A DNA stretch of 64,000 nt from contig CAJXNM010000001.1 in NCBI GenBank assembly GCA_913057135.1, forward strand, positions 1 through 64,000, read 5' to 3'. Positions 2 to 5,443 of this stretch are shown here, one piece after another; the stretch's first letter is position 1; every line of letters starts with the position of its first letter. The stretch is from an uncultured Halieaceae bacterium. GTDB taxonomy: Bacteria; Pseudomonadota; Gammaproteobacteria; Pseudomonadales; Halieaceae. The position numbers and the translations under genes are program-made. The notes under the pieces are model-generated. The model saw only the letters and a program-made list of their open reading frames with translations. It was not told the origin of the DNA and did not search any database.

Positions 2-77
2 GCCCAGATAGCTCAGTTGGTAGAGCAGGGGATTGAAAATCCCCGTGTCGGCGGTTCGATTCCGTCTCTGGGCACCA
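2..77 (+). tRNA. tRNA-Phe (anticodon GAA)
   Basis: The 76-base cloverleaf starts at base 2. The acceptor stem pairs bases 2-8 with 67-73 at all seven positions, the discriminator is A74, and CCA is encoded at 75-77. The anticodon loop carries GAA at 35-37, which reads UUC and UUU, so this is tRNA-Phe. The T-loop GGTTCGATTCC is standard. The gene stands alone; its promoter lies outside the window. Confidence 0.97.
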
Positions 78-268: not shown

Positions 269-1057
269 CTATCCTTCTAGTATTGGCCGATAGGTAGGTG
301 CTGCATCAAGCACAATATCGTCACTGCCAACCCCGTCGAAGGGGTCCTCGAGGTGCTCTTGTAGGTTGTCGAGGGACACCAGCACCAAGCTATAGAGTAC
401 CGCCACAACGTAGCCCACCTGGGGAAACGCGATCGATTCGGCACACAGAAAGGCGAAATAAGGTCCGAATGCGATGGGGAATAGATTCAAGAAGACACTA
501 CTGTAGGCGCGCAAGGTCACAGGCGTTCGGTACATGGCAATATTCCTGAGTAACTCATAGTCACGCATCATATTGCTGAGATATTGGTTGGCCCGGGACA
601 ACTCAGAGCCGCTGACACCACCCGTGCGCAACTGCTCATGGGACAGGGAAATATCCGAGAACACCCCATAAACCCTCGATAAATCCTGGACATGCTCGGC
701 GCCACTGGTCAGATCTTGCTTAATCGCTACCAGCAGAGACTCAATAAGCGCTCGTATTCGATGACGGTGGTCAGAATTAGGGGCTTGATCGCCGGGTACC
801 CAATCCCGGTGGGCGTAATAGAGCGAGACCGCATTCGCCTTAATTCCCGAGAACGACATCAGTGCGTCCTCGCGACGCTTATAGGCGGCGTTAATCGAGA
901 AAACAATGGGAAAAACCACCGCCAAGCCAATCAACCCCGTGGGGATCTCGGCGAGTATGTTGAACCGTTGGCAAGCATAGGTTGACGCGATGGCCAGCAC
1001 GGTAACGATGACCGTTTGGTGATCGAGCACCGTTGCAAAATTTCTAAGTGTTTTCAT
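269..1057 (-). CDS. Bestrophin-like four-helix membrane protein
   Basis: A 262-residue inner-membrane protein with two hydrophobic hairpins, about residues 14-57 and 188-228, separated by a long polar alpha-helical region. Directly after the last helix is LDNLQEHLEDPFDG (about 229-242) followed by an acidic DD. This resembles the conserved end of the bestrophin / UPF0187 (YneE) anion-channel family, where a helix is followed by an E-x-PFG-type motif and an acidic patch. Assignment is by this motif and topology; bacterial bestrophins are usually somewhat longer, so it may be a divergent relative. It is transcribed away from the export-like operon starting at 1301, and the 243-base gap between them probably holds both promoters. 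Substrate is unknown. Confidence 0.6.
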   Translation of the reverse strand: MKTLRNFATVLDHQTVIVTVLAIASTYACQRFNILAEIPTGLIGLAVVFPIVFSINAAYKRREDALMSFSGIKANAVSLYYAHRDWVPGDQAPNSDHRHRIRALIESLLVAIKQDLTSGAEHVQDLSRVYGVFSDISLSHEQLRTGGVSGSELSRANQYLSNMMRDYELLRNIAMYRTPVTLRAYSSVFLNLFPIAFGPYFAFLCAESIAFPQVGYVVAVLYSLVLVSLDNLQEHLEDPFDGVGSDDIVLDAAPTYRPILEG

Positions 1058-1300: not shown

Positions 1301-2974
1301 ATGCATCCCCGTATGGGAAAAAAAGCAGTAGATCTGTTAGCAACGCGACGTAGCTTGCGCCGATTATTGGCGCCGGAGTCAAAGTTTCTCAATGTCGTCA
1401 TCATCTATGGTCTGGCCATCAGCCTTATGACGCTGGCTGTACCCATCGCTGTTCAAACATTGATTAACACCATCGCTAATATAGGGTCCATGCGGGCAGT
1501 GGTCGTTCTGTCAATTACCCTTTGCTTGCTGCTCTTAGTGTCCGGTGTTCTCAGCGCGCTGCGACTCTGGATAGTGGAGCTCTATGAGCGGCGGGTGTAT
1601 GCGCGGCTCACCGCAGAAATGAGCTACCGATTGATTAGGGCACCCCACGATTTCTTCGAGGGCCGCCGCAACGCTGGTATCACCCACCGATACTTCGACA
1701 TCATGACCCTGCAAAAAAATGTGCCGCGGTTAATGGTCGATGGCTTCACACTGGTGCTGCAAATGCTAGTGGGCTTTACGCTTGTGTCGTTCTATCACGA
1801 ATGGTTGTTCCTCTTTAACATGATCGTCATTGTGATTATGTACGCGATTTGGCGCATTTGGGCTTATCGGGCCAAAGAAACCGCCCTGGAGCTGTCACGC
1901 AGTAAATATGTCATGGCCAAATGGCTCAGTGACGTCGAAGTAGCCCATGAATTCTTCAAGGCAAGCCGCCACGCTGATCTAGCGGCACAAACCACCAACG
2001 CAAACGCTAAATATTTCGTTGAAAGTCACGGCAATCACTTTCGCTACACCTTCACCCAAGCGATTATGTTCCTGCTGTTATCGGCGTTCGGCAGTGCCGC
2101 CCTGTTGGGGTTAGGTGGCTGGTTAGTCAGCCGAGGGCAATTGTCTATTGGCCAACTGGTGGCGGCAGAGCTCATCATGGCCACCATCTTTCAGAACCTA
2201 TCGCGCTTTGTCAGCTATCTAAAGTCCTATTACGAACTGTACGGTGCCGCGGATAAGATCACCGAGCTGCTGTCTGTTCCCCAAGAGCCCGAGATACATG
2301 TTAGGGGCGCAGAGCCCACCTCCGGCGACCTCGAGTTCCACAATGTGCAAGTACGTCGAGGAGATAGAGTTTGCCAAGTCGACCTTACACTACAAAGTGG
2401 TCAGAAAATGTTTGTCCAAGCGAGCGAGGCTTGGATTCAGCGCAAAGTGCTTAATGCCATTCGCTACCACGAAACCCCCGAATCGGGCTGGATCACCCTG
2501 GGCGGAAAGTCTCTGGCAGACCTCGATCAATATGAAGTTCGCCAGGTCATTCATAGTATCGACCGCAATTTAATTGCCGAATGTTCAATAAGGGAGTTCC
2601 TCAGACTGTCGGCGCCCGATGCCGGTACCCACGACATTATGACGGTGCTTCGGGATGTCAGACTCTGGTCGGTGGTAGAGCAATTTCCCGAAGGTCTCGA
2701 TACCCGTTTATCGGTCTTGGGTGCACCCTTCCAAAGCGTGGAAGTGCTGTTATTGAAACTGGCTGCGGCGATTCTGGCGCACCCTAAAGTATTGGTCCTC
2801 AATCAGCGTTTTGACAATGTACTGGGACATGCCCGCGAACACATTATGCAGGTACTTGAGCAACAACCCTTCACCGTGCTGTATTTCACCAGCTATCCCG
2901 ATAACCGTTTCTTTGACGGTTGCTTGCACTTAACCCCCATTAATAGCAGCCCAGAGGCGCAAAGTGATGACTGA
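1301..2974 (+). CDS. ABC-exporter-like protein with degenerate ATPase domain
   Basis: 557 residues with the architecture of a type I secretion ABC exporter: six hydrophobic helices (about 30-300) and a C-terminal domain (about 343-545) that follows an ATP-binding cassette in outline. Aligned by eye, all catalytic motifs are missing. The Walker A site reads QASEAWIQRKVL (373-384) with no GxxGxGK. The Q-loop glutamine is absent (SIDRN, 419-423). The LSGGQ region reads GAPFQSVEVLLLK (474-486). Walker B ends in LVLNQ instead of LLLDE (497-501), and the switch histidine is replaced in YFTSYPDN. Surrounding family landmarks (FPEGLDTRL, LAAAILAHPKVLVL) stay in frame, so this is not a frameshift. The start may be ATG 1301 or ATG 1313. 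It overlaps the HlyD gene by 11 bases. Alternative: a non-ATPase scaffold or sensor rather than a pump. Confidence 0.85.
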   Translation: MHPRMGKKAVDLLATRRSLRRLLAPESKFLNVVIIYGLAISLMTLAVPIAVQTLINTIANIGSMRAVVVLSITLCLLLLVSGVLSALRLWIVELYERRVYARLTAEMSYRLIRAPHDFFEGRRNAGITHRYFDIMTLQKNVPRLMVDGFTLVLQMLVGFTLVSFYHEWLFLFNMIVIVIMYAIWRIWAYRAKETALELSRSKYVMAKWLSDVEVAHEFFKASRHADLAAQTTNANAKYFVESHGNHFRYTFTQAIMFLLLSAFGSAALLGLGGWLVSRGQLSIGQLVAAELIMATIFQNLSRFVSYLKSYYELYGAADKITELLSVPQEPEIHVRGAEPTSGDLEFHNVQVRRGDRVCQVDLTLQSGQKMFVQASEAWIQRKVLNAIRYHETPESGWITLGGKSLADLDQYEVRQVIHSIDRNLIAECSIREFLRLSAPDAGTHDIMTVLRDVRLWSVVEQFPEGLDTRLSVLGAPFQSVEVLLLKLAAAILAHPKVLVLNQRFDNVLGHAREHIMQVLEQQPFTVLYFTSYPDNRFFDGCLHLTPINSSPEAQSDD

Positions 2975-3989
2975 CTTTCGTGCAGACTACTTTGCGCATA
3001 TGGAAACCCTTAAGCGCGTTCGATTACCCAATGTCTATCGGGTAGTTAGTGCACTTTTGCTTGGCCTGGTTGTGGTAGTTGCAAGCGTGCTGTGGTTTGT
3101 GCCCTGGATTCAAACCGCCTATGGCGACGGGGTGGTAGACACCCTCAACCCCAACCAGCGTATCCAGGCTATTTCAGCCTTGGTGCCTGGTCAGGTGAAA
3201 GAGTGGCATGTTAGGGAAGGCCAAAGTGTGGCGGCCGGTGATCCGGTGGTCACACTGGTCGACGCAGACCCTGCACTTATCGAGCGTCTCGAAAATCAAA
3301 TTCAGGCGGCAACACAGCAAAAAGCAGCTCAAGAGTCCGCGCTGGCCACCGAAGAGAACAATCTAAAAAGACAGCTGGGCTTGAAAGAAAGAGGGCTGAC
3401 CTCTCAACGGGATATCGAAAAAGCTAACCTTGAGATTCAAAAGATCAAAGCCGAGATTGCAAAAATTGACGCCGAGCTCAACAAACTGAAGGTTCAAAAA
3501 GCTCGGCAATCGCTGCAAACCAAGGTGGCGCCAATGGCGGGCACCATTTTGCGGCTTCTGTCCTCAGGCACCGCCACCTATTTGAAACCCGGTGATGTGG
3601 TGGCCTCCTTTATTCCTGACGGAGTAAAGCGGTCGGCGGTGATAACAGTGAACGGCCTCGATGCCACGCTGATTCAACCCGGACGTGAGGTGCGACTCCA
3701 ATTCGATGGCTGGCCGGTATTCCAGTTTAGCGGCTGGCCTGATCTGGCGGTGGGAACGTTCAGCGGTATCGTCGATTTCGTGGAGCCGGTGGCCAATCAA
3801 CAGGGCCAGTTCCGGGTATGGGTAAAGCCAGACCCGAATGCGGTACCCTGGCCCGATGAGGAACATATTCGTCTGGGTAGCCGAGTGCGAGGCTGGGTGC
3901 TGCTTGAGGAGGTGCGCTTGGGTTACGAACTTTGGCGTCAACTCAACAACTTCCCGCCCATCAATCCCGCAGTTAACGGGCAACCCTAA
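2964..3989 (+). CDS. HlyD-family periplasmic adaptor protein
   Basis: A 341-residue membrane-fusion protein that would bridge the inner-membrane partner and an outer-membrane channel. It has a short cytoplasmic N-terminus, one membrane helix (about 27-50) and a biotinyl-lipoyl-like half-motif (VPGQVKEWHVREGQSV, about 74-89). A coiled coil rich in Gln, Lys and Glu follows (about 107-178), then the second lipoyl half and a beta-barrel region. The coiled coil is shorter than in HlyD itself. Either GTG 2964 or ATG 2967 can start it, with GAGG at 2954-2957. It overlaps the upstream ABC-like gene by 11 bases, and its stop codon overlaps the next ATG, which indicates translational coupling of all three genes. 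With the ABC partner lacking ATPase motifs, the energy source is unclear. Confidence 0.9.
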   Translation: MMTDFRADYFAHMETLKRVRLPNVYRVVSALLLGLVVVVASVLWFVPWIQTAYGDGVVDTLNPNQRIQAISALVPGQVKEWHVREGQSVAAGDPVVTLVDADPALIERLENQIQAATQQKAAQESALATEENNLKRQLGLKERGLTSQRDIEKANLEIQKIKAEIAKIDAELNKLKVQKARQSLQTKVAPMAGTILRLLSSGTATYLKPGDVVASFIPDGVKRSAVITVNGLDATLIQPGREVRLQFDGWPVFQFSGWPDLAVGTFSGIVDFVEPVANQQGQFRVWVKPDPNAVPWPDEEHIRLGSRVRGWVLLEEVRLGYELWRQLNNFPPINPAVNGQP

Positions 3990-5443
3990 TGGCCTATCGC
4001 TTCCCCATCGCCGCGCTTGCGCTAGCGCTGGCGGCCAACTTGAGTATGGCCGATGGGCCCAAAGAGGCCGTCGAGCCCCAGTCAGTGGCGCTCACGCAAG
4101 AGACGATAAGCGCACCGACCGTGCAGCAACTGGTTGAGGGCATTGTTCGGCACCACCCGGAATTTAGGGCCACCCTTGCCCGTACCGATCAAGCCGCAGG
4201 ATTGCAGCAGGTGGCGGATGCGGCATTTGACGCGCGTATCACGCAAGATACCGGGGTGCGCGCCTCGGGCTATTACGACGGCAGCTACGCCAAACAGACC
4301 ATTAGCCAGCCTATCGCGGCAATGAATGGTGAGCTATTCGGTAGCTACCGCATCGCCGGTGGTCAGTTTCCCGTTTACGAAGCAGAGTTCGATACCCTCG
4401 ATCTTGGTGAAGCGAGCATGGGGATTCGGCTGTCACTACTTCAGAATCGTGTGCTGGATGAGCGTCGCATTGAATTGCAACAAGCCGCATGGAAACTACT
4501 GGCCGCCCAATCAAAGCAAGATGTCGAACTCAATAAACTGGTCTATGCGGGGGTATCGAGCTACCTGAATTGGTACCAAAGCTTCCGCCGTTTGGGGGTT
4601 ATTCGGGATTTGGTCAGAATTACCCAAGAGCGCTTTAGCGGCATTGAAGCGCGGGTAGACAGCGGTGACCTGGCCCAAATCAGCTTGACCGAGTTTCAAT
4701 CAACCCTGTTGCGGCGGCAGCTGCTGGAGCGAGAAGCCGAGCAACGCTTCGAATTAGCCAAGCAACAACTTGCCTATTTTTGGCGGGTCAGTAACAGCGC
4801 CATGGCAACACCACAAGCAATGGGCCAACCACCGCAGGATATTGGCTGGCCCTACAAAGCGCCCAGCATCGACCTGTCGGCCTTTGATGATCAAATTGCA
4901 CAACATCCGAGCGTCAGTGCATTGAATGCGCAGCTAGAACAAGCGCGCAATCAGCAGCGATTAGCCCGCAACGAAGTACTGCCGCAACTCGATCTTGAAT
5001 TGAAAGTAGCGCGGGACATCGGGCAAGGCATAGAGCCCTTGACCGGTAACGATTCCATCATTGGCCTGTCATTTTCAGTGCCAATCGGTCAGCGAGCTGC
5101 CCGTGCCCGTGAGTCCATTGCCGCAGCCGGTGTCCGAGAACTCGAATTCGAGAGCGTCGTCCTAACCGATCAGTTGCGACGGGATGTGGCGCTATCCCTT
5201 GAGGCCCTGGACTACGGACGCCGTATTTTGGCTATCAGTCGTGAACAAGAAGCGGTTGCTGAACAGCTACAACGCCAGGAGCAGGAGCGATTCGAAGCCG
5301 GTGTCAGCGACCTATTTCTGTTGATCAACCGAGAAACCGCGGCCCTGCAAGCCCACCTAAAGTCGGTGGATGCGGAAGTGGATTTGATGCGCCAAGAGTT
5401 GGCCTTGCAAGCCACACTGGCCCAGTTACTGCCTAGCGCCTGA
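3989..5443 (+). CDS. TolC-family outer-membrane efflux protein
   Basis: 484 residues with a cleavable signal peptide (hydrophobic AALALALAANLSMA). The body is a long alpha-helical hairpin protein typical of the outer-membrane efflux protein family, with repeated Gln/Glu/Arg-rich helices (for example around 225-275 and 400-470). It should form the trimeric outer-membrane and periplasmic tunnel of a tripartite exporter. The ATG shares its A with the TAA stop of the HlyD gene, so it is the third gene of the coupled operon. It is distinct from the second tolC at 17464-18897 and has no close resemblance to it beyond the family pattern. Its 3' end overlaps the convergent permease gene by 18 bases, leaving no room for a separate terminator. 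Confidence 0.9.
   Translation: MAYRFPIAALALALAANLSMADGPKEAVEPQSVALTQETISAPTVQQLVEGIVRHHPEFRATLARTDQAAGLQQVADAAFDARITQDTGVRASGYYDGSYAKQTISQPIAAMNGELFGSYRIAGGQFPVYEAEFDTLDLGEASMGIRLSLLQNRVLDERRIELQQAAWKLLAAQSKQDVELNKLVYAGVSSYLNWYQSFRRLGVIRDLVRITQERFSGIEARVDSGDLAQISLTEFQSTLLRRQLLEREAEQRFELAKQQLAYFWRVSNSAMATPQAMGQPPQDIGWPYKAPSIDLSAFDDQIAQHPSVSALNAQLEQARNQQRLARNEVLPQLDLELKVARDIGQGIEPLTGNDSIIGLSFSVPIGQRAARARESIAAAGVRELEFESVVLTDQLRRDVALSLEALDYGRRILAISREQEAVAEQLQRQEQERFEAGVSDLFLLINRETAALQAHLKSVDAEVDLMRQELALQATLAQLLPSA

Follow-up and report, generated by a model that had tools for sequence, protein, structure and literature searches.

The stretch of DNA analyzed here (the window) comprises the first 64,000 nucleotides of contig CAJXNM010000001.1 from an uncultured Halieaceae bacterium (assembly GCA_913057135.1) and carries a three-gene operon, A-B-C, that is a new variant of the tripartite ATP-binding cassette (ABC) exporter, possibly with a change of energy source. 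Gene A (positions 1301 to 2974; like all operon coordinates below, on the forward strand) encodes a 557-residue protein with the ABC exporter fold, according to the open reading frame (ORF) call, Pfam, NCBIfam, and an AlphaFold2 model. Gene B (2964 to 3989) encodes a HlyD-like periplasmic adaptor of about 340 residues with an N-terminal hydrophobic helix (HlyD_3, E value of 1.4e-9), and gene C (3989 to 5443) encodes a TolC-type outer membrane channel of 484 residues (OEP, E value of 3.8e-25). These are the positions that a first-pass annotation, made from the sequence alone, had assigned to the three ORFs. Our computations support a full exporter fold in gene A, loss of its ATP site in a stepwise manner, a conserved operon, purifying selection in close relatives, and a family-specific glutamate, E290, in the sixth transmembrane helix (TM6). 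Gene A is not a one-off but a member of a conserved family of Alpha- and Gammaproteobacteria with a fixed gene order. Genes A and B overlap by 8 to 11 nucleotides, given an alternative ATG start for gene B at 2967, and a single base is common to the TAA of gene B and the ATG of gene C; such overlapping start and stop codons make translational coupling of the three genes plausible.

The gene A product comprises a six-helix transmembrane domain (TMD; approximately residues 12 to 324) followed by a degenerate nucleotide-binding domain (NBD), here called the pseudo-NBD (approximately residues 335 to 545). Pfam recognized ABC_membrane in A, HlyD-type domains in B, and OEP in C, and ABC_tran was absent from the window's A at E values of up to 1. 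Nonetheless, the best NCBIfam exporter model spans residues 15 to 524, which makes the pseudo-NBD nearly full length, and the domain is also traversed by HMMER alignments to solved exporters. The AlphaFold2 model, built with 49 homologs (mean predicted local distance difference test score, 87.6; predicted template modeling score, 0.79), shows long transmembrane helices and an NBD, together with short predicted helices at residues 116 to 122 and 216 to 220 that, judging from their positions, would occupy the sites of the two coupling helices of exporters. Foldseek returned PCAT1 (8vox_A) as the top PDB match of the model (TMq of 0.83). With VIA-align, the model was superposed on the TmrAB chain 6rai_B over 540 residues (Z of 26.7, root mean square deviation [rmsd] of 2.9), tied with the next rows, and on HlyB (8dck_B) over 536 residues (Z of 26.3, rmsd of 3.1), tied with many exporters; a modeled exporter fold would not by itself be proof of a shared function. 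The six helices and the in-frame, nearly full-length NBD outline that had been read from the letters alone are thus borne out by the NCBIfam alignment and the model, and superposition on exporters leaves the C-terminal domain modeled as a full NBD.

What this domain lacks is the ATP site. Alignment to intact exporters places the former Walker A motif at residues 374 to 381 (2420 to 2443), with Q380 at the position of the lysine; the former Q-loop glutamine corresponds to D421 (2561 to 2563) or to a gap, depending on the alignment; the former LSGGQ signature reads FQSVE (residues 477 to 481; 2729 to 2743); the former Walker B Asp-Glu pair reads N501-Q502 (2801 to 2806); and the former switch histidine is S531 (2891 to 2893). 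The first-pass annotation had held that all ATPase motifs are replaced, at about positions 2414 to 2890. The replacement of every motif is confirmed by these alignments and by the column counts given below, and the interval encloses all of these sites except the switch histidine position, which falls outside it. We then considered the main clade of the family in an alignment of 83 rows consisting of the window protein, its homologs G003 and G059b, and 80 loci from a genome collection. The Walker A lysine, the Q-loop glutamine, and the Walker B aspartate were each found in 0 of 83 proteins, as were an LSGG[QE] signature and a P-loop, while the catalytic glutamate column holds a glutamate in four rows and the switch column a histidine in one. 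The loss of the ATP site across 83 members is far beyond chance, and motif loss is common to the homologs.

The 80 collection loci are the best-scoring 80 of 450 relatives of A recovered by tblastn over the genome collection, so that counts based on them apply to the closer relatives in the family, and ordinary exporters may be present among the lower-scoring ones. The loci, two of which (L078 and L118) come from one assembly, belong to Alteromonas, Paraglaciecola, Halieaceae, Sphingomonadales, Parvularcula, Kordiimonas, and others. No stop codon interrupts the matched frame at any of the 80. By tblastn, a homolog of B lies directly behind A at all 80 loci, and a homolog of C follows B at 74; the remaining six have less than 1.3 kb of sequence behind A, so that C is present at every locus with more than 1.3 kb there. 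Closer to the window, a search of 97 genomes of relatives, its own included, identified a clear homolog in 5 of 57 same-genus genomes (the window's genome, G002, G003, G005, and G053). Genome G059, from the same family, carries two paralogous copies (L036 and L038) that are 42% and 41% identical to the window protein. Six aligned homologs from the nearest genomes all lack intact Walker motifs, and close relatives that retain them, which would have pointed to a recent pseudogene, were not among them. Among 398 genomes sampled evenly across the phylum, 11 (counting the window's) gave a match at an E value of 1e-40 or better, and in a class sample, 14 of 369 genomes, again including the window's, carried a family member at 257 bits or more, the next-best match (201 bits) being an intact exporter.

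Constraint on the pseudo-NBD was assessed from the ratio of nonsynonymous to synonymous substitution rates (dN/dS), for which 100 of 228 pairs were usable (dS below 1.5 in both domains), none of them containing the window's own protein. In the 30 closest usable pairs (at least 83% identity), dN/dS ranged from 0.013 to 0.249 in the NBD and from 0.011 to 0.184 in the TMD. Over all 100 pairs, which are not independent and of which the distant ones are near saturation, the medians were 0.33 and 0.19, respectively, and no value exceeded 1. The first-pass annotation had read the motif loss as selected rather than as decay, and its proposed dN/dS check on the pseudo-NBD came out in favor of this view: the loss is common to homologs, the domain is modeled in full, dN/dS is low, and the frames are open. 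The balance of constraint between the two domains is reversed relative to working exporters: among 45 family-wide rows, conservation of the NBD is below that of the TMD in 990 of 990 pairs, whereas among 18 intact exporters it is above that of the TMD in 137 of 153 pairs. In exporters, the Q-loop and X-loop stretches face the coupling helices. A column-by-column comparison of the family, done without the partial protein L061, showed these stretches of the pseudo-NBD to be more conserved than other NBD columns (P = 2e-5), which suggests a retained interface with the TMD, although their difference from the former ATP-site columns was not significant (P = 0.11). Constraint is relaxed in the Walker A stretch (entropy of 2.27 bits, against an NBD average of 2.05 bits) and in the A-loop; of the regions compared, TM6 is under the tightest constraint.

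The ATP site appears to have eroded in steps, since sister lineages with the same operon still keep the Walker A motif and one of them also keeps the Walker B Asp-Glu pair. These lineages, found by outward searches, carry the adaptor gene directly behind A. Three of their members (L129, L134, and L145) retain GxxxxGK[ST], and L145 additionally retains the Walker B pair; all three lack LSGGQ, the Q-loop glutamine, and, by column, the switch histidine, with L129 having a histidine one residue past that column. An intact Walker A was seen only in a distant sister lineage, whereas the P-loop is lost in L130 to L132, L133, and L148 to L152. Pfam recognized ABC_tran in L129, L133, and L145. The P-loop-keeping lineages also have a channel gene, which is diverged (OEP matches in L169, L172, and L175). 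A maximum-likelihood tree built from the TMD only (63 rows, 312 columns; L146 left out), in which some branches are long and some forks open, sets the family apart from the 18 intact exporters (100/100). On this tree, the label "P-loop lost" needs two changes, and one was sufficient in 0% of 200 bootstrap trees; the starred branches taken alone still allow a single change. As the P-loop is present in intact exporters, this is most simply read as two losses. L145, L129, and L134 are natural intermediates in ATPase loss. The proteins of one sublineage, L150 to L152, are about 520 residues long and have a shrunken pseudo-NBD, with an adaptor gene present; L150 matches neither ABC_membrane nor ABC_tran in Pfam. 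The stop flags in the distant L130, L132, L134, L145, L148, and L151 fall outside the ORF or at its end.

Outside the NBD, the family is marked by E290, located in TM6 (helix 283 to 324; codon at 2168 to 2170) and invariant in the alignments. It is a glutamate in 83 of 83 main-clade rows and in 45 of 45 family-wide rows, the three P-loop keepers included, but in none of the 18 intact exporters, 13 of which have asparagine or glutamine in that column. As E290 is present in the P-loop-keeping rows too, its appearance predates P-loop loss on the tree. Further along the helix, in its cytoplasmic part, column counts single out Y311 and the acidic position 312 (2231 to 2236): the tyrosine occurs in all 45 family rows and in 0 of 18 intact exporters, and aspartate or glutamate at 312 in 38 of 45 family rows and in 4 of 18 intact exporters.

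Among the three mechanisms that the first-pass annotation had offered (another ATPase, a different drive, or a sensor or static conduit), the evidence favors a system that is driven differently. Here, A, presumably as a homodimer in the inner membrane, would work with the periplasmic adaptor B and the outer membrane channel C as a tripartite exporter. Its ABC engine would be permanently disabled, the pseudo-NBD would serve as a scaffold, and transport would most likely be driven by an ion gradient, presumably of protons or sodium, through E290 and possibly the acidic residue at 312. Precedents exist in the literature. A TM6 glutamate of LmrA, E314, is needed for proton coupling, and the TMDs of engineered LmrA and MsbA lacking the NBD perform proton-coupled transport in vitro (PMC2704374, PMC6155054, PMC4979069); SbmA is a natural proton-driven ABC TMD (PMC13316013); and an early stage of HlyA secretion reportedly depends on the proton-motive force (PMC5018854). 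By analogy, these precedents make ion coupling of A-B-C plausible. We put the probability that A-B-C is an ATP-independent, ion-driven trans-envelope exporter with the NBD kept as a scaffold at about even. A more far-reaching proposition, to which we would give somewhat less than even chances, is that this natural family of ABC exporters turned from primary to secondary active transport and kept a dead NBD. Export across both membranes would then draw on an ion gradient by way of one invariant TM6 glutamate, acquired before erosion of the ATP site ended.

Several observations weigh against ion-driven export. E290 is the sole invariant acid in the membrane part and lies near the periplasmic end of TM6, where it aligns with F288 of MsbA. 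An equivalence with E314 of LmrA is unsupported, as that residue falls near window position 310 by its spacing to Walker A and E290 is about 20 residues further outward (both estimated through MsbA). E290 could instead serve substrate binding or packing. A profile comparison of A with SbmA and its multi-glutamate ladder gave no significant match and no usable alignment, and no channel gene was found in the neighborhoods (L178 to L180) of the shrunken homologs L150 to L152. In addition, the former ATP-site columns taken together show somewhat higher conservation than the remaining NBD columns (P = 0.02), mainly because of Walker B and the H-loop. The pseudo-NBD thus seems to be maintained for its structure or its contacts, and the former ATP face may have an additional role.

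Alternative explanations were weighed against the same evidence. It is unlikely, in our estimation, that A-B-C is a gated or passive conduit from which a substrate leaves down its own gradient, opened by the substrate or by the membrane potential and without energy coupling. Such a conduit would fit the disappearance of ATP-site residues alongside a conserved TMD, adaptor, and channel, and channels with the ABC fold are known, as ABCC7/CFTR is an ATP-gated channel and a D-loop mutation turns ABCB2/B3 into a nucleotide-gated facilitator (PMC7756269); however, the invariant TM6 glutamate and the strong constraint on the TMD fit a coupled machine better. A passive path through both membranes would also need tight gating. 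In an ABC dimer, each ATP site is composed of the Walker and switch residues of one subunit and the signature of the other. Without either set, A could not, from known structures, complete a composite site even with an intact partner, which argues against A being joined, in a heterodimer or a larger complex, to an intact ABC ATPase that is encoded elsewhere and supplies the power. We regard this possibility as improbable: two further ABC exporter-like matches are present in the window's genome, and exporters with one degenerate site are common (PMC7756269), but A, B, and C are packed too closely for a partner gene to fit between them, and the 45 largest neighbor clusters within up to 10 kb included no conspicuous ABC partner.

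We likewise give low credence to A being a membrane sensor or scaffold that, without being a transporter itself, controls how the adaptor-channel pair or another pump is assembled or opened. Regulatory ABC proteins do exist, such as ABCC8 and ABCC9, which regulate Kir6 channels (PMC7756269); yet A, B, and C are ordered as in a tripartite exporter, no constantly linked second inner membrane pump was found, and the region of A under the strongest constraint among those compared is TM6. Residual ATP use by a noncanonical site is very improbable. The Walker A of the three P-loop keepers and the Walker B pair of L145 indicate that nucleotide binding is probably ancestral, and a fair degree of conservation persists in the former Walker B and H-loop columns, but the lysine, the Walker B aspartate, and the signature are gone from all 83 rows of the window's clade, and conservation of the former Walker A stretch is below the NBD average. 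A recent pseudogene or an assembly artifact has a negligible probability. The patchy presence within the genus would suit this explanation, as would a distant homolog in genome G1026 that has four TAG codons in the match and looks broken (some other distant homologs were flagged with single stops). A recent pseudogene is nonetheless refuted by the 80 open matched frames and the dN/dS values, to which conservation across classes can be added.

The adaptor carries an RxxxLxxxxxxS motif (RQLGLKERGLTS; 3369 to 3404), which has been described as a TolC-tip motif (PMC3391258). In the alignable adaptors (77 of 81), its arginine and leucine are more than 90% conserved, and 38 of the 77 fit a looser regular expression in which Ser/Thr is included. 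Beyond A, B, and C, no constantly linked gene, cargo or partner, was found among the 45 largest neighbor clusters (up to 10 kb), from which the ORF picking missed genes in GC-rich loci and for which only B and C were rechecked by tblastn; the absence of a constant cargo gene applies to these clusters, and RTX-type proteins were not searched for. The largest real cluster is a LysR-type regulator present at 32 loci, a minority, with 20 of its 33 members at most 500 bp upstream, in both orientations. At 11 loci (L043, L045 to L050, L056, L058, L064, and L076), it is divergent and less than 200 bp from the operon; other loci have a LysR gene on the operon's strand or none. Neighbor cluster 4, found at 16 loci at the place of gene B on the opposite strand, is probably a shadow ORF. 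The ABC-type ATPase clusters recognized by eye were ABC-F-like (six loci) and UvrA (five loci). In the window itself, a bestrophin-like membrane protein (269 to 1057, reverse strand; PF25539, E value of 2.7e-8) is encoded divergently from the operon.

On the TMD tree, the window protein and that of G003 group with Alteromonadaceae, an Endozoicomonas, and unclassified gammaproteobacterial assemblies (12 rows, 99/98), apart from Luminiphilus syltensis and other Halieaceae. A tRNA-Phe gene (2 to 77, forward strand) lies about 1.2 kb upstream of the operon, and tRNA genes are typical insertion sites. Given this grouping, the nearby tRNA gene, and the patchy presence in the genus, the operon was likely acquired horizontally. 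A viral origin was rejected, as neither of two viral-contig scans turned up a relative. A link to Francisella EmrA1/SilC was considered and dropped because the inner membrane partner there, EmrB, is of the major facilitator superfamily type (PMC8149597, PMC4405390).

Compared to known systems, A-B-C resembles HlyB-HlyD-TolC type I secretion in its gene set, exporter fold, and adaptor with a TolC-tip motif. It differs in having no catalytic ATP site, an adaptor of about 340 residues, an A protein that starts at the TMD without an N-terminal peptidase-like domain, and, as far as the neighbor clusters go, no constantly linked cargo gene. With the proton-driven SbmA/BacA (SLiPT) importers, it shares an ABC exporter TMD that does not use ATP (PMC13316013); SbmA has neither NBD nor coupling helices and possesses a TM0 and a glutamate ladder, whereas A keeps its NBD and, in the model, helices at both coupling helix positions, and sits in a tripartite exporter operon. 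LmrA and MsbA are natural ATPases whose NBD-less forms were engineered, and E290 is at another level of TM6 than E314 of LmrA. The heterodimers TM287/288 and TmrAB resemble A in fold and in a partly degenerate NBD. These heterodimers keep one canonical ATP site, whereas no site could form in A, and neither the operon nor the 45 largest neighbor clusters offer a linked partner subunit. The first-pass annotation had known of no described system of this shape, and in the open-access literature (subscription papers being outside the scope), none of the matches listed described an exporter operon whose NBD is fully degenerate. Passages retrieved from a large review of tripartite pumps and type I secretion systems (PMC8277102) likewise contained no such exporter.

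The current annotation hides the motif loss. In 15 plasmid records with homologs, five are named "ABC transporter ATP-binding protein" and three "ABC transporter transmembrane domain-containing protein", while seven have no annotated gene there. A-B-C raises the question of whether an ABC exporter scaffold is powered without ATP in nature, for which the precedents found are SbmA, which has no NBD, and the NBD-less LmrA and MsbA engineered for work in vitro. A full-size version devoid of the ATP site occurs at no fewer than 80 collection loci and probably in many more of the 450 relatives, and the family offers a natural control for the roles of the NBD besides ATP hydrolysis.

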